Source: Planctomycetota bacterium | GTDB taxonomy: Bacteria > Planctomycetota > JACQVX01 | DNA: 35,406 bases | Assembly: GCA_016209495.1 (NCBI GenBank) | Contig: JACQVX010000194.1 | Location: forward strand, 1 to 35,406 | Direction of reading: 5' to 3' | Shown: positions 3,128 to 17,607 of the stretch, one piece after another | Layout of the letters: each line of letters begins with the position of its first letter | Position numbering within the stretch: position 1 is the stretch's first letter | Program-made: the position numbers and the translations under genes | Notes under the pieces: model-generated | The model's input: only the letters and a program-made list of their open reading frames with translations | Told to the model about the DNA's origin: nothing | Database searches by the model: none

Positions 3128-5173
3128 GTGCCGGCCGCTCGCAGCGCCCGGTTCGTCCTCGCCGCCGCCCTCTTCGCGGCGGGCCTCGCGGTCTACCTCC
3201 CCGCCCTGGAGAACGGATTCATCAACATGGACGACGGGACCTACCTCACCCGGAATCCCTGGGTGCAGCGTGGGCCTACGGCGGACGGCGTGCGCTGGGC
3301 CCTCACCACGGGCCACGCGGCCAACTGGCATCCCCTCACGTGGATCTCCCACATGGTGGACTGGGGCCTCTTCGGGGAGCGGGCCTGGGGCCACCACCTC
3401 CACAGCGCCCTGCTCCACGCCCTGAACGGCGTCCTGCTCTTCCTGGTCCTCGCGCGCGCGAGCGGCCAGACGGGCCCCAGCGCCTTCACCGCGGCGGTCT
3501 TCGCCCTGCACCCGCTCCACGTGGAGTCGGTCGCCTGGGCCGCGGAGCGCAAGGACGTCCTCTCCACCTGCCTGGGGCTGGCCGCCCTCGCGGCCTGGGT
3601 CCGCCACGTGGAGCGCCCCTCGCCGGGGCGGCACGCCGCGGCGGCGGTGTGCCTCGCCCTGGGCCTGGCGGCCAAGCCCATGCTCGTGACCTTGCCCTTC
3701 GTCATGCTCCTCCTGGACCTCTGGCCCCTGGGGCGGCTGGGCCGGGCGACCTCCACGGGGCGCACGGCTCGCCGAGAGCCCTGGACCTGGGCCCTGATCC
3801 GGGAGAAGCTCCCGTTCCTGGCCCTCGCGGCCGCCTCCGCCCTCGCGACCTTCCTCGTGCAGAGGGGCGGCGGGGCCGTGACGGCGGTGGAGGCCATGCC
3901 GCCCGGGATGCGGGTGCGCAACGCCCTGGTGGCCTACCTGCGATATCTGGGGAAGGCCTTCTGGCCCTCGGACCTGGCCATCTTCTATCCCCACCCGGGC
4001 GAGACCCTGGGCAACGGGGAGGCCCTCCTCGCCCTCCTCGCCCTGGCGGCCATCACCGCCGCCGTCCTCCGGCTCGCCCGCCGCTGGCCCTGGCTGGCGG
4101 TGGGCTGGTTCCTCTACGCGGGGATGCTGGTCCCGGTCATAGGCCTCGTGCAGGTGGGTTCCCAGGCCATGGCGGACCGCTACATGTATCTCCCCCTGGT
4201 GGGGCTCACGATCCCGGTGGCCTGGGGCGGGTCGCTGGTGGCGGCCCGTGGGCCCCGGTCGCGGCGGGCCGTGGCCTGCGGCGCGGCCGGCGTGCTCGCT
4301 GCCCTGGCCTGGCTGACCGTCGCGCAGGTGGGGACCTGGAGGGACAGCGAGACGGTCTTCCGCCGCGCGGTGGAGGTGACCCGGGAGAACTACACCGCCC
4401 ACAACAACCTGGGGATCGCCCTGGAGGAGCGCGGGGCCGCCGACGAGGCCGCCCGGCACTACAGGCTTTCCCTGGAGGCCCGGCCCACCTACCACAATGC
4501 CCTGAACAACCTGGCCCTGGTGGAGGCGCGCTCCGGCCGCCACGCCGAGGCGGAGGCGCTCCTGCGACGGGCCATGGCCTGTGCCCCCCTGGACCCCACG
4601 GCCTGGTGCAACCTGGGCTACGTCCTGGCCCAGCAGGGGCGCGGCGCCGAGGCCGTGGAGGAGTACCGGCGGGCCATCGCCCTCGACCCGGACTACGCCG
4701 AGGCCCTGAACAACCTGGGCCACGCCCTGGCCGGCCTGGGACGGGACGAGGAGGCCCTGCCCCACTATCGCCGCGCCCTCGCGCTCCGGCCCGGATACGA
4801 GAAGGCGAGGAACAACCTGGGGGCTGCCCTCTACCGGCTCGGGGTGGAGGCCGCCCTGGCGGGCCGCCCCGAGCGGGCGGAGGCCTGGCTGGCGGAGGCG
4901 GTGGCCCTCAGGCCTCGCCACGCCGAGTCGCGGAACAACCTGGGAAACGTCCTGGCGGGGGCGGGGCGCGTGACGGAGGCCCTGCCCCATTTCGAGGAGG
5001 CGGTGCGCCTCGCCCCGTCGGTGGCGGCCTTCCACGTCAACCTGGCGAAGGCCCTCCTGGCGGCGGGGAGGCGCGACGAGGCGGCGGCGCGGCTGCGCCA
5101 CGTCCTGGAGACGCTGGACCCCGCGAACGCCGAGGCGCGCCGGCTGCTCCAGGGGGCGGGGGGTGGGGGCTAG
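3128..5173 (+). CDS. Multi-pass membrane protein with C-terminal TPR repeats (bacterial TMTC-like / GT-C-like)
   Basis: Hydrophobic N-terminal half with NGFINMDDGTYLTRNPWV, HPLHVESVAWAAERKDVLS, MADRYMYLPLVGL; C-terminal TPRs (AHNNLGIALEERG, WCNLGYVLAQQGRGAEAVEEYRRAIALDPDYAEALNNLGHAL). GTG start at 3128 inferred. Confidence 0.85.
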   Translation: MPAARSARFVLAAALFAAGLAVYLPALENGFINMDDGTYLTRNPWVQRGPTADGVRWALTTGHAANWHPLTWISHMVDWGLFGERAWGHHLHSALLHALNGVLLFLVLARASGQTGPSAFTAAVFALHPLHVESVAWAAERKDVLSTCLGLAALAAWVRHVERPSPGRHAAAAVCLALGLAAKPMLVTLPFVMLLLDLWPLGRLGRATSTGRTARREPWTWALIREKLPFLALAAASALATFLVQRGGGAVTAVEAMPPGMRVRNALVAYLRYLGKAFWPSDLAIFYPHPGETLGNGEALLALLALAAITAAVLRLARRWPWLAVGWFLYAGMLVPVIGLVQVGSQAMADRYMYLPLVGLTIPVAWGGSLVAARGPRSRRAVACGAAGVLAALAWLTVAQVGTWRDSETVFRRAVEVTRENYTAHNNLGIALEERGAADEAARHYRLSLEARPTYHNALNNLALVEARSGRHAEAEALLRRAMACAPLDPTAWCNLGYVLAQQGRGAEAVEEYRRAIALDPDYAEALNNLGHALAGLGRDEEALPHYRRALALRPGYEKARNNLGAALYRLGVEAALAGRPERAEAWLAEAVALRPRHAESRNNLGNVLAGAGRVTEALPHFEEAVRLAPSVAAFHVNLAKALLAAGRRDEAAARLRHVLETLDPANAEARRLLQGAGGGG

Positions 5174-7479: not shown

Positions 7480-10203
7480 ATGCCGGAACGCCTCTTCCTC
7501 GTGGACTGCATGGCGCAGGCCTACAGGGCCCACTTCGCCTTCGTCCGCAGCCCCCTCACCAACTCCCGCGGGATGAACACGAGCGCCCTCTTCGGATTCC
7601 TCCGGGAGCTGGTCTCCCTCCTCGACGAGGAGCGGCCCGACTACCTCGGGGTGGTGAGCGACTCCCCCGAGCCCACCTTCCGCCACCGGGCCTATCCTGC
7701 CTACTAGGCCACCCGGGAGCGGATGCCCGAGGACCTGGTGGAACAGATCCCCTACCTGCGCCTCCTGACGGAGGCCCTGGGGATCCCCTTCATCCTGGTG
7801 CCGGGCTTCGAGGCGGACGACCTGATAGGCACCCTGGCCCGGCGAGCCGAGGCGCGGGGCCTCTCCTGCATGCTCGTGACGGCGGACAAGGACTTCATGC
7901 AGCTCGTCACGGGGGCCGTGTCCGTCTACCGCCCCCGGCGGGGCGAGCCCGCCGAGGTCATCGGGCCCGCGGGGGTCGAGGAGGCCTGGGGCGTCCCCCC
8001 GGCGCGCATCGCCGACCTCCTGGGGCTCATGGGCGACAGCTCCGACAACATCCCGGGGGTCGAGGGCGTCGGGAGGGTGACCGCCGCGCGGCTCCTGCGG
8101 GAGCACGGGGACCTGGAGGGCGTCCTGGGGGCGGCGGCCGGCGGCACCATGAAGGCCTCGAAGACGCGGGAGCGGCTGGTCGAGCACGCCGAGGTGGCGC
8201 GCCTCTCCCGGAGCCTGGCCACCATCGACGTGGAGGCGGCTGTGGAGCTGGACCTGGGGGCCCTGCGGGTGGCGCCCCCCAGCCTGGACCGCCTGCTGCC
8301 CCTGCTCCGGGAGCTGGAGTTCCATTCCCTGCTCGACCGCTACACCCGCGAGGCCGCCCGGGCGGACGTCGCGGGCGAGCCCGCCGTCTCCCCGTACGCG
8401 GCGGTGGTCCAGGACTACAAGGTCCTCACCGACGCGGCGGAGGTCGCGGCCTACGTGGAGCGGCTGCGCCGCCTGGGCGAGCTGGCCTTCGACACGGAGA
8501 CCACGGGCCTGGACCCGCTCACGGCCCGCCTGGTGGGGGTCTCGCTCTCGGGCGCCGAGGGGGAGGCCCGCTACATCCCGGCCAACGTCCCCGGGGGGGA
8601 GGGCCTCATCCGGGAGCAGGTGGCGCCGCTCCTGGGGGACCCCTCGGTGCCCAAGGGGGCCCAGAACGCCTCCTACGACCTCCAGGTCCTGGCCGCCCAC
8701 GGGATCCGGGTGCGGGGGCTGGCCTTCGACACCATGGTGGCGGACCACCTGGTGGACCCCACGGTGCGCCACGGGCTGGACCTCATGTCGCTGCGCTACC
8801 TCGGCTACACCAAGATCAAGACCGAGGAGCTCATCGGGAAGGGCAAGGACCAGATCACCATGGACCGGGTGGAGGTGGCGCGGGTGGGGCGCTACGCCTG
8901 CGAGGACGCGGACTTCACCTGGCGGCTGCACCGTCTCCTGGGCCCGCGGGTGGCGGAGCTGGGCCTGGAGGCGTGGTACCGGGAGGTGGAGGTGCCCCTG
9001 GTGGAGGTCCTGGCGTCCATGGAGCGCACCGGGGTGCGGGTGGACGCGGACAGGCTACGCGAGCAGTCCGGGACCATGACGGTCCGCCTGGCCGCGCTGG
9101 AGGCCCAGATCCACGAGCTGGCCGGAGAGGTCTTCAATGTGGCGAGCCCGAGGCAGCTCGGCCCCGTCCTCTTCGAGCGGCTGCGGGTGCAGGACTCCTG
9201 CGGAGTCCGCCGGGTCCCGCGGACCAAGACGGGCTGGTCCACCGACGCGGGGGTCCTGGAGCCCATGTCCGGGGTCCCCATCGTGGCGAGGGTCCTGGAG
9301 CACCGGGAGCTGGCCAAGCTCAAGGGGACCTACCTGGATGCCCTCCCGGGGCTGGTGAACCCGGTCTCGGGGCGGATCCACACCTCCTACCACCAGACCG
9401 GGACGGCCACGGGACGCGTCTCCTCCAGCGACCCGAACCTCCAGAACATCCCCGTGCGCACCCCGGTGGGGCGCGAGGTGCGGCGGGCCTTCGTCCCCCG
9501 GGGGGAGGGCTGGGGCCTCCTCTCCGCCGACTACTCCCAGATCGAGCTGCGCCTCATGGCCCACATGGCGGCGGAGCCCTACCTCATCGACGCCTTCCGG
9601 CGGGGGGAGGACATCCACGCCTCCACGGCGGCCCTGGTCTTCGGGGTCCCGCCCGCCCAGGTGGACCCGGTGCTGCGCGGCCGGGCCAAGGCCATCAACT
9701 TCGGCCTGCTCTACGGCATGGGCCCTCAGCGCCTCGCCCGGGAGACCGGCCTGGGGCTGGACGAGGCGCGGCGCTTCATCGACGACTACTTCACCCGGCT
9801 GCCCCGGGTGCGGGACTACATCGCGCGCTCCATCGAGGAGGTGCGCCTGCGAGGTTACGCCACGACCCTGGCGGGGCGGCGCCGGTCCATACCGGAGATC
9901 CACCAGGCGAACCGCGGCCTCCAGGTGAACGCGGAGAACATGGCGGTGAACACCCCCGTCCAGGGGAGCGCCGCCGACGTCATCAAGCGAGCCATGGTGG
10001 CCATCCACCGGCGCCTGGCGGCCGAGGGCTGGCAGGCCGCCATGCTCTTGCAGGTCCACGACGAACTGGTCTTCGAGTGCCCCGAGGGAGAACGGGAGGC
10101 CCTCACCGCCATGGTGCGGGAGGAGATGGCCGGCGCGTGGAGGCTGGCGGTCCCCCTGGTGGTGGACGTGGGCTGGGGGGCGAGCTGGGCCGAGGCGCAT
10201 TGA
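7480..10203 (+). pseudogene. polA: DNA polymerase I, full-length frame interrupted by an in-frame TAG at 7705-7707
   Basis: Codons before (MPERLFLVDCMAQAYRAHFAF...PTFRHRAYPAY) and after the TAG (ATRERMPEDLVEQIPYLRLLTEALGIPFILVPGFEADDLIGT) are the contiguous PolA 5'-nuclease domain. Exo motifs (FDTETTG, NASYDLQ, YACEDAD) and polymerase motifs (LLSADYSQIELRLMAH, RGRAKAINFGLLYGMG, QVHDELVFE) are intact. Could be a nonsense mutation, a sequencing error or recoding; listed as pseudogene only because of the stop. Confidence 0.85.
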
Positions 10204-10239: not shown

Positions 10240-13200
10240 TCAGGCGCGGACCGCCTCGTCGATCCGGGACGCGACCTCCTCGGGCCTCCTTGCCATCCCA
10301 TAGGACCAGTGCCCGTACCGGCCGTCGGCATTCACGGCCGCGACCCAGCGCTCGGCTGCGGCACGCTTGACCTTCTCGAGGGGGTCGAACCCCTTTGTCT
10401 CCAGGATGAGCTGACGCCCGTCCCGGAGGCGGATCACGAAGTCGGGGACGTAGTCGTGCGCCTCCCCGTTCCACAGGTACGGGATCCCGAATCCGAGTCC
10501 GGCATTCTTGACGAAGGCACCGACCGCATGATGCCTGTCGATGGCAAACGCCGCGGACTGCTCCCATCGCTTGGTGTCGGCGACGACGAAGTTCACGTGG
10601 CTGTTCGTGACCTCCCGGACCTCTCGACTCGTCCAGAGGTCCACCTCGTCGGTCCGGATCGGCCCGCGTCCGGTCTCGTAGCGCGGGACCTCCGGCGTCG
10701 CCCCCTTGCCCCGATCCGGCTGGATCGCGCTCACGAGCCGTTCGATCACCCAGCCGTAATACGGAGACAGGAAGACGTCGAGGACGTCGGCCCCCGGGAC
10801 CGGCTCGACTCGCTCCCGGAGGTAGCGCCCCGCGATCCGGGCGACCTGCGGGAAGAGGACGTGGGGCGGGGCCTCGCACCCCGCCTGGGCGACGTAGTCT
10901 CGTGTCAGATCCCCCGCGAGTTCGAAGACGAGATCCTGGAGCCGTCGCCCCTTCCGGAACGGATTGAGGGTGACGTCCTCGATCACCCCCGGCCCGAAGA
11001 GGCTCGGTCGGCCCCGGTTGGTGAGGAGGGAGGCCTTGACCTCGACCTCGGTCGGGATCTGCCGCGGGTCGAGTCGAAGGGGGGGTGCCTTCGTCCAGTC
11101 CACCAACACGCGGTTCCGGATCGCCTGGCTGTACCCGTCCACCCTCGGGATCTCGATCCGGAACTCTGCTCGCTCGGGGATGGCTCGGACGTGGTGCCGT
11201 TTCGCCGGCGAGGGCTTCGGCCCCCCGGCGTCCTCCTTGAACGGGATCACCTCGAAGGGGACGCCGAAGACCTTGGCGACCTCCTCCGTCAGTCGCCCGT
11301 CCGGTCCGACCTCGTAGCTCGTCCGCCGGAGCCCGCGCCCCACGACCTGCTCGCAGAGGAGCTGGGACATGAACGGCCGGAGCCCGACGATGTGGGTGAC
11401 GGTGTTGCAGTCCCACCCCTCGGTCAGCATCCCGACGCTCACGATGCAGCGGACGTCCCGTCCCGGGGGCGGGTACTCGGGGCGGCGACCGAGTCGCTTC
11501 TCGGCGACCGGCAGGAAACCCTCGGGATAGATCGACCGGCCCTCGGGGGCGCGGGGCCAGGAGACCTTCCCCACCGTGTCGAGGGTGAAACGCATCCACG
11601 CCGACTCGTCGGTCTTGGCCTCCCCGGTGTCCGTCTCGGCGACGACCCGCGAGTCGACCCGGATCGTATTCACCTGGTCGTCGTGGTTCCGGAATCCCTC
11701 GATCCCGGCGCGCGGGATCCCGATGGGCGGCCGGTCCTCGGCAAGCCACTCGTATACGACCTTCGCGATCCGCGTGTTCTTGCAGACGATGATGAAGACC
11801 GGCGGCCGCGGGTCGTCCTTCGTCCTCTCCCACCCCCGGCGTAGCTCTTCCCAGAGGCCCGCCAGCATCTGGATCGGGTGATTCGCCCACTTGAGGATCG
11901 CCTCGGGCCTCGGGGACGCCTTCCTTCCGCCACGCTCCGCCGGGGTCAGGTGCTCCGAGATCCAGTGCCAGAGGTTGAAGTACCCCGGGACCTCGGCCCC
12001 CGAGGAGTCGCGGACGGCGAGCTGGGGGATCTTGACGAGCCCGGACTCGATGGCGTCCGTGAGGGAGAAGTCGCTCACGACCCACGGGAACGGTCGGTTC
12101 GCCTCGGGACCGGACCGGACGAGGTAGTAGGGGGTAGCCGAGAGGTCGACGCAGACGTTGATCCGCCGGAGGCGGTGGATCCGGTCGAGCCCTTCGACCC
12201 AGACCGTCGCCTCCTTCTCCCAGGACCCGCGGTCTTCGTCCTCCTCTTCCTCTTCCTCCTCCGCCGCCTCGCCGTCCGTGGCCGCTTCCCGGATCCGGTA
12301 GGCGTGGTGCGCCTCGTCGTTCAGGACGAGGAGGTTCTGCCTCGTGCCGACCTCACGCCCCAGGATCCGGTTCACGACCGAGGCATCGCTCTCGATGAAC
12401 CTCTCGGACTCGACGACGACCCTCCGGAGGCTCCCCTCCCGGTCGTTCTCTCCATCGACGACCGAGAGTAGACCCGCCGCCACCTGCCGGTGGAGATCCT
12501 CCGGCGTGAGGTAGCGCGTCCCCCGGACCGTCGTCGTCCTGGGTCCGATGGTGATCCTCTCGCGCACCCGGACCCGGACGCCGCACCGCATGACGCGCGC
12601 GCTCGTCCCCCCGGCCTGGACGACCTTCGGCTCGAAGACGTGCCAGTTCGTCACGACGACCCGGCCGCGGGCGAGGAGCGGCATGAGGTGCGGCGGAACG
12701 AGATCGCGCATCCGGTAACCGCTCGCCCCCCCGGCGTCCGGTCTCAGCTCCTGGAGCCGGCTCCGGATCGTGACGTTCGGGCAGATGACGAGGACCGCAT
12801 CGGAGAATCGGGCGTCGGTCCGGTCGTTCACCTTGTTCAGGATGCTCCAGGCGACGACCATCCCCATGACGGTCGTCTTCCCCGCCCCGGTCGCCATCTT
12901 CAGGGCGTAGCGCCGGAAGGCCCGTACGCCGCGGGTCCGGGCCTCGTCCCCCGGCTCATCGAGGGGGACGTCGATCCCCTGCCGGAGGTCGGCCCTCGCC
13001 TCGGTGAGGAAGATGATCGTCTCTGCCGCCTCGAGCTGGGCGAAGAAGAGTCGGTGCTCCCGCCCCTCGCGGCGCCAGTAACGGAGGAGGTCGAGGGTCG
13101 TCCGCGTCGATCCCGGCCACCCGGCCTCGCGCCAGGCCTTCACCCGCTCCCGGAGCCGGTTCACGAGCTTGAGCTCGATGGCAATCCCCGCACCGTCCCC

Positions 13201-13365
13201 GGCCTCGCCCCTCGTCTCCTCCTGCGGCGCCCGGTAGTAGTAGAGGGAAGGCCGTCGTCCGGGCCGGCGCTCGGCGGGGCTTCCCTCCTCGATGTGCCAG
13301 TGCTCGGCCGGCTCCTCGAAGGGGGAGCAGATGATCGGTTCCGGGACCTCGAAGCGGGTCCTCAC
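10240..13365 (-). CDS. Type III restriction enzyme Res-like helicase-nuclease (BPTD_3080-like)
   Basis: Walker A region LKMATGAGKTTVMGMVVAW, DEAH-type box LLVLNDEAHHAYRI, DLSATPYY, motif VI-like EQVVGRGLRR, C-terminal PD-(D/E)xK-like DYVPDFVIRLRDGRQLILETKGFD. GTG start. Confidence 0.85.
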   Translation of the reverse strand: MRTRFEVPEPIICSPFEEPAEHWHIEEGSPAERRPGRRPSLYYYRAPQEETRGEAGDGAGIAIELKLVNRLRERVKAWREAGWPGSTRTTLDLLRYWRREGREHRLFFAQLEAAETIIFLTEARADLRQGIDVPLDEPGDEARTRGVRAFRRYALKMATGAGKTTVMGMVVAWSILNKVNDRTDARFSDAVLVICPNVTIRSRLQELRPDAGGASGYRMRDLVPPHLMPLLARGRVVVTNWHVFEPKVVQAGGTSARVMRCGVRVRVRERITIGPRTTTVRGTRYLTPEDLHRQVAAGLLSVVDGENDREGSLRRVVVESERFIESDASVVNRILGREVGTRQNLLVLNDEAHHAYRIREAATDGEAAEEEEEEEDEDRGSWEKEATVWVEGLDRIHRLRRINVCVDLSATPYYLVRSGPEANRPFPWVVSDFSLTDAIESGLVKIPQLAVRDSSGAEVPGYFNLWHWISEHLTPAERGGRKASPRPEAILKWANHPIQMLAGLWEELRRGWERTKDDPRPPVFIIVCKNTRIAKVVYEWLAEDRPPIGIPRAGIEGFRNHDDQVNTIRVDSRVVAETDTGEAKTDESAWMRFTLDTVGKVSWPRAPEGRSIYPEGFLPVAEKRLGRRPEYPPPGRDVRCIVSVGMLTEGWDCNTVTHIVGLRPFMSQLLCEQVVGRGLRRTSYEVGPDGRLTEEVAKVFGVPFEVIPFKEDAGGPKPSPAKRHHVRAIPERAEFRIEIPRVDGYSQAIRNRVLVDWTKAPPLRLDPRQIPTEVEVKASLLTNRGRPSLFGPGVIEDVTLNPFRKGRRLQDLVFELAGDLTRDYVAQAGCEAPPHVLFPQVARIAGRYLRERVEPVPGADVLDVFLSPYYGWVIERLVSAIQPDRGKGATPEVPRYETGRGPIRTDEVDLWTSREVREVTNSHVNFVVADTKRWEQSAAFAIDRHHAVGAFVKNAGLGFGIPYLWNGEAHDYVPDFVIRLRDGRQLILETKGFDPLEKVKRAAAERWVAAVNADGRYGHWSYGMARRPEEVASRIDEAVRA

Positions 13366-13390
13366 TCGCTCGCAACCTCCGGTCGCTCGC

Positions 13391-15046
13391 TCATCCGGGG
13401 AAGGCCCTCAGGATCGCGTCGAGCTTCTCCACGACCTCGGGGTGGATCTCCTCGGGGCGCATGAGGGCCGCTATCTCGTGGTAGCGGGTGTACGGCAAAC
13501 CATGAATTCCCGCGGCCGACAACGCCGGGGGGATGAGGTCGGTGCGGGCCTTTACACCAGCCAGGAACTGGAACTCGCCGAGCGGGTCGCGGAGGAAGGG
13601 AGGCGGGTACTGGTCCTCGAAGTGCCGCTGCAGGTCGGCGACGTGCTGCCGGGCCGCATCGACGCCCCCGACGGTTTGCTCGACGAAGCGTGCGAGCGCC
13701 GCCGGGTGGATGAGATAGCTCTCGATCTCGTACCGCCGCCAGCGGAGACGCTGGAGCCCGCGCCCGGTGATCTCGGTGGACTGCTTGTCAGGGTGCGCGT
13801 CACCGTCGACCAGCTCCAGTCCGGGAAGGTCGTCTCGAACCAGCTTCAGGGCCTCGTGGTGCTCCCTCGCCTTCACCCCGGGGGCGTCGTCACGGAGCTG
13901 GATCACCGTTGTCTTGCAGAGCAAGCCGGAGGTCAGAAGTTGCCGCGCCGGGTGGTCCAGCAGACTGGCCCACGTCCGGAGGATCTCGAGATCCGTGTGC
14001 CCCTCGACGTAGAGGACCCCCGCCACCTGGAGCGCGAGCATGATGTCCGTGTTCGAGAGGATCCGGATGGACGATACCAGACGCTCCCGCTCCCTCGTGT
14101 CGGCGAGCATTCGAGGCTCTGTGAGGACCACGCAAATCTCGGAGGGATCGACCGAGTCGATGATGACCTCGGAGTGGGTCGCCACGACAAGCTGAGCGCC
14201 GGTCCGGGCGGCCACCGAACGCAGCTCGCCGTAGATCGCGTCCTGGAGGATCACATGGAGATGGGCGTCCGGCTCATCGATGAGGAGGACCGAGCCCGGG
14301 CGCGAATGTAGGAAGGTGAGGAGCATGAGGACCTGCTGAAACCCGCTCCCGCCACTCGCGATGTCGAACCTCGGGCCGTCTGGACGCATCGCGTACTCGG
14401 CCAGGATGTCCGCCCCGGCGGCCTCGGGCGGGAGGATCTCGAAGCCGAAGAGCCGGCGGATCGACTCCCGGAGCGGCACCCACGCCGTCTCCGACTCGCA
14501 CGCCGCCACGAGCAGGTTCCTCAGGATCTCGCCGGGGCGGCCGAGGCCGAGGAGCTGCTCGATCTTCGGCGGCCGATAGACCGGTTCCGCGACCGCGAGT
14601 CCCGTCAGGGAAGGCACCAAGGCGACATCGAGCCTCAGGGCCTTGAGGCCCTTTGGATCCACGTCCCTCGTCGGTCGGACGTAGATCTGTTCCGTGCTCT
14701 CCAGGGCCAGTTCCATCGTGACCGAAGGGCCTGTATCGATCTGGACGGTGATCTCGATGGGGCCGTCGGAGCGCCGATCCGTCCAGAGGAGGTCGAAGAC
14801 CCGGAGGGGAACCGCGTGAAACGCCTGTCGAGCGAGCGGGGCCTTGGCGTAGTGGCCGCCGTGTCGCTGGAAATCGTTCAGTTCTCGCCACCGGTTGAGG
14901 GCCAGGGACCAGGCGGCGATCGCCTGGAGTAGCGTCGTCTTCCCGGTGTTGTTGGGGCCGGCGAGGACGACGTGGCCGGGGAGGTCAAAGGTGACCCCTT
15001 CATCATCGAACCGCTTGAATCGTCGGAGGACGACCTTGCGGATCAC
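13391..15046 (-). CDS. OLD-family-like ATPase with TOPRIM-like C-terminal domain
   Basis: MIRKVVLRRFKRFDDEGVTFDLPGHVVLAGPNNTGKTTLLQAIAAW (Walker A), ASGGSGFQQVLMLLTFL (signature-like), SVLLIDEPDAHLH (Walker B), then TOPRIM-like VLYVEGHTDLEIL and ELVDGDAHPDK with RYEIESYLI. GTG start overlaps the mod stop (GTGA). Confidence 0.75.
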   Translation of the reverse strand: MIRKVVLRRFKRFDDEGVTFDLPGHVVLAGPNNTGKTTLLQAIAAWSLALNRWRELNDFQRHGGHYAKAPLARQAFHAVPLRVFDLLWTDRRSDGPIEITVQIDTGPSVTMELALESTEQIYVRPTRDVDPKGLKALRLDVALVPSLTGLAVAEPVYRPPKIEQLLGLGRPGEILRNLLVAACESETAWVPLRESIRRLFGFEILPPEAAGADILAEYAMRPDGPRFDIASGGSGFQQVLMLLTFLHSRPGSVLLIDEPDAHLHVILQDAIYGELRSVAARTGAQLVVATHSEVIIDSVDPSEICVVLTEPRMLADTRERERLVSSIRILSNTDIMLALQVAGVLYVEGHTDLEILRTWASLLDHPARQLLTSGLLCKTTVIQLRDDAPGVKAREHHEALKLVRDDLPGLELVDGDAHPDKQSTEITGRGLQRLRWRRYEIESYLIHPAALARFVEQTVGGVDAARQHVADLQRHFEDQYPPPFLRDPLGEFQFLAGVKARTDLIPPALSAAGIHGLPYTRYHEIAALMRPEEIHPEVVEKLDAILRAFPG

Positions 15047-17607
15047 GTCGTCGCGTGCTCGAGGTCCTTCACGACCAGGAGCTCGTTCCCGCGGTCGTCG
15101 ATGACCTTGACGGCGATCCGGCCGTGCCCCCCCCCCTCGAAGGGGGCGCTCGTGGTCCCGGCGAGGTGGTCCCAGACGGAGTCGCCGTAGGACCCCTTCA
15201 GGGCCCGCTGGAGGCCGTCCCAGGCCGCCGTCTTCGGGAAGAAGGCCTGGGAGACGTGGAACGAGAGCCCGTTGTAGTCCGTGTCCAGGAACCAGGCGGG
15301 GACGTCGTCCCCCTTGCGGTGCTCCGTCTCCATCTCCACGGGATCGAAGACGTCGAGGCCGAGAAGCTCGACGGTGTAGCGGAGGGGCGCCCCCCTCTTC
15401 TCGGCCTTGGCCCTTCGGACGGCAATCTCGGGGAGGCCGCAGACCGAGAAGATCTGACTCGAACGCATCGTCTTCAGGAGGTCGCCCATCACCAGGTCGG
15501 GGGTCGCCTGGCAGTAGGTCGCGGGGACCCCGACCGTCGCCTCGGACTGGTCGATGAGCGCGCGGGCGTTGGGCTGGATCGCGAACCCGATCACGTAGAG
15601 ATGGGTGTAGCCCTTGGCGTGGGCCTCCCGGGCCGCCCCGTAGACGAGGCGCTCCGACACCGCGCCGTTCTCCGGGCCGAAGACGAAGGCGACCGCCTTC
15701 TCGGCCCCGTTGGCGACCACCGCCTCCGCCGAGAGGGAGAGCGTCTTCGCGGGCGGCCGGACGTTCTTGAAGGTCACCGTCCGGTTCCCCTCCAGCCGGA
15801 GGATCGGGGAGCGACGCAGCACCTCCAGCATCCGGTCCGCGGACGTGCGCGCGTCCTCCGGGGCCTCGCCCCCGTCCGTCTCCTCCCAGTCCACCGGCTG
15901 AGGGATCGTCGCCTCCACGCAGAAGGGGCCCGTGACCCGGGTCACCTTTGCTGCCTCCTCCGGGCGGTCCACCAGGACCTCCTCGGCCGGGGGCTCGTCG
16001 TTGGCGATGCCCTTCAGGGTCACGTGGGGGACGATCCCTCCGACCTCCTCGCCCTTCTTGTTCTGCTTGCGGACGTAGACGAACCCGCCCACGGGGCCCC
16101 TCGCCTCGTCCTTGAGCTGGTAGTAAGGGAAGGTCGCCGTGAGGAGCCGCTGGCGCGCGAGGGCCAGGGGGACCCTTGATGTGTCGATCGTGATCCACCG
16201 CCGGCCCCACTCTTCCGCTACGTAGGCGGTGGTCCCCGACCCGCAGGTCGGGTCGAGGACCAGGTCGCCGGGGTCGGTGGTCATGAGGAGGCAGCGGGCG
16301 ACGACGGAGGTGCTGGTCTGGACGACGTAGGTTTTCCCCGTCGCCCCCGCGAGATCGGCCCAAAGGTTTGTGATGGGCCATGCAGCGAAGTCATCGATGT
16401 AGGTCACGTAGGCGATGGTCTTGTCGCGCGCCTGGATTCGACGAGCAGCGACTAGACGCTTGAGGCCATCGATGCTGGTCGCCCAGTGGGAGTTTTGACC
16501 GGGGTGGTAGACCTTGCCTTCAAACTCGAAAGGGACGGTGGTCGTTTCTCTGAACTCAACATTGATGAGGCTGGTTAGTTGGTAGGGCCGGGAACCGGCC
16601 GGGAGCGTGCTGGGGTCGTCTCTCTCCTTCGCCGTCATGGATCGGCGTGTGCCGTCGGCAAGTTCGATCTGGTCGTACCGAGCGCCCGTTCCTGCACCAA
16701 CCCCAACTTCCTTCAAGTTGTAGATCTGCCGGTATGCTGATTTCACGCTCTTCAGGTCTTTGGAATACCAAAGCAAGTAGTCGCACACGCTTGGTAACAG
16801 GTCGCTACTTTGCCCCCCAGTCTTCTTCAGCGCGATGGTCAGGCATCTGTTCCCCCCCCCGAACACCTCGTCCATGACCTCCCGGACGTGGTGCAGGTTC
16901 TCGTCCGAGATCTGGACGAAAATGCTCCCCGTCGGGGCGAGGAGCTCGCGCGCGAGGAGGAGCCGGTCCCGCATGTAAGTGAGGTAGGAGTGGATCCCCA
17001 GTTCCCAGGTGTCGCGGTAGGCCTGGACGGTCTCGGGCTCGCGGGACATGTCCCCGTCGTCTCCATGCTTCACGTCGCGCTTCCGGACGAAGGGCTGGAA
17101 GTTGGACCCGAACTTCACGCCGTAGGGCGGGTCCATGTAGATCATCTGGACCTGCCCGCCCAGCCCCTCGTAGTGCAGCAGCGAGTTCAAGACGACCAGG
17201 GAGTCGCCCAGGACCATCCGGTTCACCCATCGATCCCGGTGCTCGTAGGCCCGGAGGATCTGGTCGGTCACGGAGTGCTGGGGGTCGGCAAAGAGGTCGA
17301 AGAGGGTCTGCTGCCCATCCCGCTTGTGGCCGGTCAGGGTCTCGACGATGGCCTTCGTCGAGAGGCGTTCATGGACGAAGAGGGGGAGGGTGGGGACCTC
17401 GAAGGAGACCCGCTCCGCCTTCCCGGCCCAGGCCAGGGCGGGGGAAAGGGACGAGTCGTAGCGGTAGGTGACCGGGGGCTTGCGCTTCTTGAACTGGGCC
17501 TCGGTCCCCACGTCCGGCCGGAGGGGCGAGTCCGCCTCCGGGTGCCGATAGGCCGCGGCCTCGGGAGGCGGCTGGGTCCTCGTGGTGCGTCGCGGTGCTC
17601 GTGCCAA
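15043..17607 (-). CDS. Type III-type adenine-specific DNA methyltransferase (Mod-like)
   Basis: DPPY motif (VQMIYMDPPYGVKFGSNFQPF), AdoMet motif (DLVLDPTCGSGTTAYVAEEWGRRWITID), GDSL..LNSLL. TTG start at 17607 with GAGGGAG upstream is preferred over the supplied extension to 17748. Confidence 0.88.
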   Translation of the reverse strand: MARAPRRTTRTQPPPEAAAYRHPEADSPLRPDVGTEAQFKKRKPPVTYRYDSSLSPALAWAGKAERVSFEVPTLPLFVHERLSTKAIVETLTGHKRDGQQTLFDLFADPQHSVTDQILRAYEHRDRWVNRMVLGDSLVVLNSLLHYEGLGGQVQMIYMDPPYGVKFGSNFQPFVRKRDVKHGDDGDMSREPETVQAYRDTWELGIHSYLTYMRDRLLLARELLAPTGSIFVQISDENLHHVREVMDEVFGGGNRCLTIALKKTGGQSSDLLPSVCDYLLWYSKDLKSVKSAYRQIYNLKEVGVGAGTGARYDQIELADGTRRSMTAKERDDPSTLPAGSRPYQLTSLINVEFRETTTVPFEFEGKVYHPGQNSHWATSIDGLKRLVAARRIQARDKTIAYVTYIDDFAAWPITNLWADLAGATGKTYVVQTSTSVVARCLLMTTDPGDLVLDPTCGSGTTAYVAEEWGRRWITIDTSRVPLALARQRLLTATFPYYQLKDEARGPVGGFVYVRKQNKKGEEVGGIVPHVTLKGIANDEPPAEEVLVDRPEEAAKVTRVTGPFCVEATIPQPVDWEETDGGEAPEDARTSADRMLEVLRRSPILRLEGNRTVTFKNVRPPAKTLSLSAEAVVANGAEKAVAFVFGPENGAVSERLVYGAAREAHAKGYTHLYVIGFAIQPNARALIDQSEATVGVPATYCQATPDLVMGDLLKTMRSSQIFSVCGLPEIAVRRAKAEKRGAPLRYTVELLGLDVFDPVEMETEHRKGDDVPAWFLDTDYNGLSFHVSQAFFPKTAAWDGLQRALKGSYGDSVWDHLAGTTSAPFEGGGHGRIAVKVIDDRGNELLVVKDLEHATT
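15127..15136. repeat. 10-bp poly-C (poly-G on the coding strand) inside the methyltransferase gene
   Basis: gtg-cccccccccc-tcga; encodes E-GGG-H. Confidence 0.95.
16852..16860. repeat. 9-bp poly-C (poly-G on the coding strand) inside the methyltransferase gene
   Basis: ctgtt-ccccccccc-gaac; encodes EVF-GGG-NRC. Confidence 0.95.

Follow-up and report, generated by a model that had tools for sequence, protein, structure and literature searches.

The polA gene analyzed here lies at positions 7480–10203 on the plus strand of a 35,406-nucleotide stretch (the window) of the draft MAG of a Planctomycetota bacterium (4.08 Mb, 291 contigs, 86% complete). Translation of this interval revealed a single frame of ~907 codons whose sole internal stop is a TAG within the 5′-nuclease domain (Table 1). 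The first 75 residues matched the Pfam family 5_3_exonuc_N on their own, and the sequence after the TAG remains in frame, with complete Pfam matches to the C-terminal part of the 5′-3′ exonuclease, to the 3′-5′ exonuclease and to DNA_pol_A. The domain set of PolA (5_3_exonuc_N, 5_3_exonuc, 3′-5′ exonuclease and DNA_pol_A) is present in one frame, with the TAG as its only break. Both claims of the preliminary description on this point, that an in-frame TAG breaks the 5′-nuclease domain and that the exonuclease and polymerase parts downstream are in frame and intact, are borne out by the translation and the complete Pfam matches, respectively.

Table 1. Coordinates of the features discussed, in window positions except for the last two entries
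Feature	Location	Strand	Evidence
polA codons 1–75, first part of the 5′-nuclease (5_3_exonuc_N)	7480..7704	+	Pfam PF02739, E 4e-18; the conserved Asp9, Asp61 and Arg68 are kept
In-frame TAG, codon 76, at the position of the invariant 5′-nuclease active-site Lys	7705..7707	+	Translation; Lys column of relatives
GGGAG and ATG, weak candidate restart site	7716..7725	+	Sequence; relatives
polA codons 77–907 and TGA stop: rest of the 5′-nuclease, 3′-5′ exonuclease domain, family A polymerase	7708..10203	+	Translation; Pfam
ResIII-type protein, 1041 aa	10240-13365	minus	Weakly recognised
AAA_21/OLD-like ATPase	13391-15046	minus	Domain match
Methyltransferase	15043-17511	minus	MTase_III, E 1e-158
Cdc48/VAT-like double AAA+ ATPase, with an in-frame TAG in place of Lys in the conserved APKR motif of the first AAA domain	L120 (G000:C260) 10423-10421	minus	Comparison with a relative
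AbiEi-like (PF09952) regulator, in-frame TAG where the two closest relatives have Glu	L074 (G000:C263) 4397	plus	Relatives

The gene has the same Pfam domains, in canonical order and at full length, as bacterial DNA polymerase I (PolA; family A with an N-terminal FEN domain), and the Pol I proteins of Taq and mycobacteria align with it across the whole nuclease domain. Unlike bacterial Pol I, it has, in this single assembly, a TAG where the Lys codon is otherwise invariant. The catalytic acidic residues of the PolA 5′-nuclease are all kept (D9, D61, E111/D113/D114, D136/D138 and D186/D189), and the active-site Lys is the feature that is lacking, with TAG standing at its codon; the organism itself would possess this Lys were the TAG an error of the consensus. 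Directly downstream of polA, positions 10240-17511 on the minus strand hold a likely type III restriction-modification cluster, in which an ATPase is placed, unusually, between Mod and Res.

At the column of codon 76, all 109 relatives compared (29 of the same phylum and 80 further named genomes) have Lys, encoded by AAG in 73 and by AAA in 36. The earlier proposal that Lys is usual at this position, and that AAG and TAG lie one base apart, therefore holds. The TAG aligns with the Lys of Taq and mycobacterial Pol I and corresponds to the active-site Lys of bacterial flap endonucleases, Lys83 in T5 FEN and Lys67 in ExoIX. According to PMC3783174, all prokaryotic FENs conserve this residue, and exchanging it for Ala abolished the activity of T5 FEN and greatly reduced that of ExoIX. 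A search for polA over 199 genomes of the phylum gave a strong match in 179, and among the ~150 of these matches that were listed, no other polA contained an internal stop. Because Lys is present in 109 of 109 relatives and the other listed polA genes are uninterrupted, the TAG in polA is, on this sequence evidence, more than a chance open frame.

Examination of the 5′-nuclease domain on both sides of the TAG revealed no decay or relaxed selection. Strongly conserved columns were kept at 12 of 12 positions before the TAG and at 19 of 19 in the following hundred residues, and residues never seen in relatives occurred at a frequency in the ordinary range, with 13–33% of relatives as high or higher. 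Drift is hinted at solely by two unusual residues ahead of the TAG, Cys10 and Ser60, which do not reach significance. The lack of decay on either side implies that the change is very recent or not real. Together, the conserved columns, the catalytic residues and the ordinary rate of novel residues argue that selection has acted on the full-length protein until essentially now; that is, it did so until very recently or still does.

These data bear on two explanations. We favor, as the probable one, an isolated one-base consensus or assembly error in the draft MAG, and infer that the TAG is absent from the DNA of the cells. The locus would then be a full-length bacterial polA of the ordinary kind, with a one-base difference that turns the invariant active-site Lys codon into TAG. 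Cells of the living population would make a normal Pol I of 907 residues from this gene, presumably in its usual role, with the 5′-nuclease stripping primers and flaps, a 3′-5′ exonuclease domain, and the polymerase filling gaps. Alternatively, and with clearly lower probability, the TAG may be a real, recent, private nonsense allele, probably deleterious, in which translation stops after 75 residues and a restart at the ATG at 7723 may give an 826-residue protein that lacks the initial portion of the nuclease domain and has Klenow-like polymerase activity only. An allele of this kind is consistent with the open, intact frame downstream and the complete polymerase domains, and with an ATG 16 nt after the TAG that is preceded by a weak Shine-Dalgarno (SD)-like GGGAG; the intact state of the nuclease domain, however, argues against it.

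The restart site had been put forward in the preliminary description as a route to an 826-aa protein. The frame of this length and the GGGAG do exist, but both the GGGAG and the Met are coding features of a conserved protein rather than additions. Specifically, GGGAG is part of the sequence encoding the Arg-Glu (CGG GAG) that precedes the Met, and this Met is present in 63 of the 109 relatives, 4 of which have an SD-like tetramer upstream. Moreover, the spacing from GGGAG to ATG is only 3 nt, which is short. Restart at this ATG is a weak possibility that nothing specific in the sequence supports, and its product would be without Asp9, Asp61 and the active-site Lys.

A nonsense allele would also require the cell to manage without this nuclease. 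In the 86% complete genome we found one polA and one match to 5_3_exonuc_N (PF02739), which is polA itself; the second polA or stand-alone 5′-nuclease that had been suggested as a check was sought and was absent. According to PMC10191290 and PMC3783174, E. coli and B. subtilis require one FEN for viability, either that of Pol I or a stand-alone enzyme, total loss of FEN was lethal in the bacteria tested, and FEN activity is essential where Pol I is its only source (for this last point, PMC3783174 cites Fukushima et al.). Because FEN is essential where a second FEN is missing, fixed loss of the 5′-nuclease would, by analogy, probably be lethal here, and with no second 5′-nuclease found, fixation of a Klenow-only allele is unlikely. 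The missing 14% of the genome could harbor another FEN or a suppressor tRNA. An amber codon likewise interrupts polA in the classical E. coli allele polA1, which reportedly keeps the 5′-nuclease and loses the polymerase, in a species that has ExoIX; in contrast, the nuclease would be lost here and no second FEN was found in the assembly. Our preference for an error over a private allele is thus a judgment, made because the domain is intact and a backup nuclease is missing. A real allele would offer a natural experiment on whether life without a second FEN is possible for a bacterium with a Klenow-like Pol I.

We also considered whether UAG is read as an amino acid. TAG terminates 205 of the 527 called genes with a stop (0.75 Mb) and is the second most used stop, and RF1 is present, recognized by an HMM match over the cut-off and free of internal stops; an RF2-type release factor is encoded in the window at 784-1893. 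Thus, neither the depletion of TAG as a terminator nor the loss or alteration of RF1 that marks UAG recoding was found, and, for practical purposes, stop usage together with RF1 rules out genome-wide recoding of TAG. The genome (86% complete) has 36 Rfam tRNA matches; ARAGORN read out 35 of these, all with anticodons other than CUA, and did not call the weakest (on contig C210, 29.5 bits) as a tRNA. There was likewise no match to PylS (TIGR02367) in the 86% complete genome, which, with no CUA tRNA among those read out, led us to reject a pyrrolysine code. That UAG has been reassigned genome-wide to encode an amino acid, a reading with the handful of internal TAGs as the one point in its favor, is therefore of practically negligible probability. 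Suppression of UAG, one of the options in the preliminary description, is disfavored by the same findings. Separately, ARAGORN called a 68-nt tRNA-Thr (GGT) inside a TPR protein gene at 4210-4277 on the plus strand; this is probably a false call, because no Rfam tRNA match in the genome corresponds to it.

TAG-ended genes were followed by in-frame coding sequence in 21 of 120 cases, versus 9 of 156 for TGA (32/205 versus 18/309 in another count). As a candidate for read-through, this excess was rejected, since case-by-case reading and domain scans resolved nearly all instances into separate neighboring genes that share a frame. We further scanned 1.73 of the 4.08 Mb with a heuristic codon-usage score for stops with coding-like sequence both before and after them. 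The scan yielded 41 TAG and 22 TGA places, nearly all of which proved on inspection to be boundaries between neighboring genes in the same frame. Three clear internal stops were found in the 1.73 Mb, all TAG: those in polA, in a Cdc48/VAT-like ATPase and in an AbiEi-like regulator (Table 1). The Cdc48/VAT-like ATPase is otherwise intact and has a 63% identical relative without the stop. A pair of cytochrome b sequences on contig C21 (L201) was rejected as a further case, since its relatives also have stops there, of varying kinds, indicating a gene boundary.

Codon usage predicts that 70% of one-base nonsense changes would give TAG (0.153 versus 0.036 and 0.028), so that three TAGs out of three are unremarkable, and a few other isolated internal TAGs are what scattered one-base errors lead one to expect. 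Real private mutations would also leave such isolated TAGs in the same genome. Counting weakly against the error explanation, two of the three clear internal TAGs, in polA and the Cdc48-like ATPase, fall on conserved Lys codons. AAG makes up 11% of TAG neighbors, and the chance of at least two of three TAGs falling on Lys is ~3%, a weak post hoc signal. It could point to localized read-through, in which a few internal TAGs are decoded as Lys or another residue by a near-cognate or suppressor tRNA and most TAGs continue to terminate translation; both proteins are otherwise intact, and competition with RF1 would permit partial read-through. The third clear TAG, however, lies on a Glu column, so no single residue fits all three, and the TAG did not recur among the listed polA genes of relatives. 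None of 40 ABC-ATPase matches contained an internal stop. With RF1 over its cut-off, TAG an ordinary terminator, and neither a CUA-anticodon tRNA among those read out nor PylS, we consider localized read-through very unlikely. A more specific form, in which UAG is a normal stop yet encodes lysine at a few sites, including the catalytic Lys of the only Okazaki-fragment nuclease, by means of a suppressor tRNA encoded in genome sequence missing from the assembly, is less credible still and would be an extreme long shot.

Most likely, then, the polA TAG represents neither a new genetic code nor a new kind of polymerase, and is either a one-base error or a rare private mutation. The Codetta screen (PMC8629427) discusses in-frame stops that are scattered through draft genomes and pseudogenes, and the internal TAGs resemble these: both are isolated stops at conserved columns with no decoding tRNA, and we saw no notable difference between them. 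The case calls for caution: a stop within the frame of an essential gene, at the codon of a catalytic residue, looks striking in a draft MAG, yet one scattered base error produces just this; in GC-rich genomes, such base errors mostly give TAG. Elsewhere in the assembly, a weak AAA-domain match at G000:C178:3428-4144 contains a TAG and a TAA, and is possibly a pseudogene or an alignment that runs past the end of a gene.
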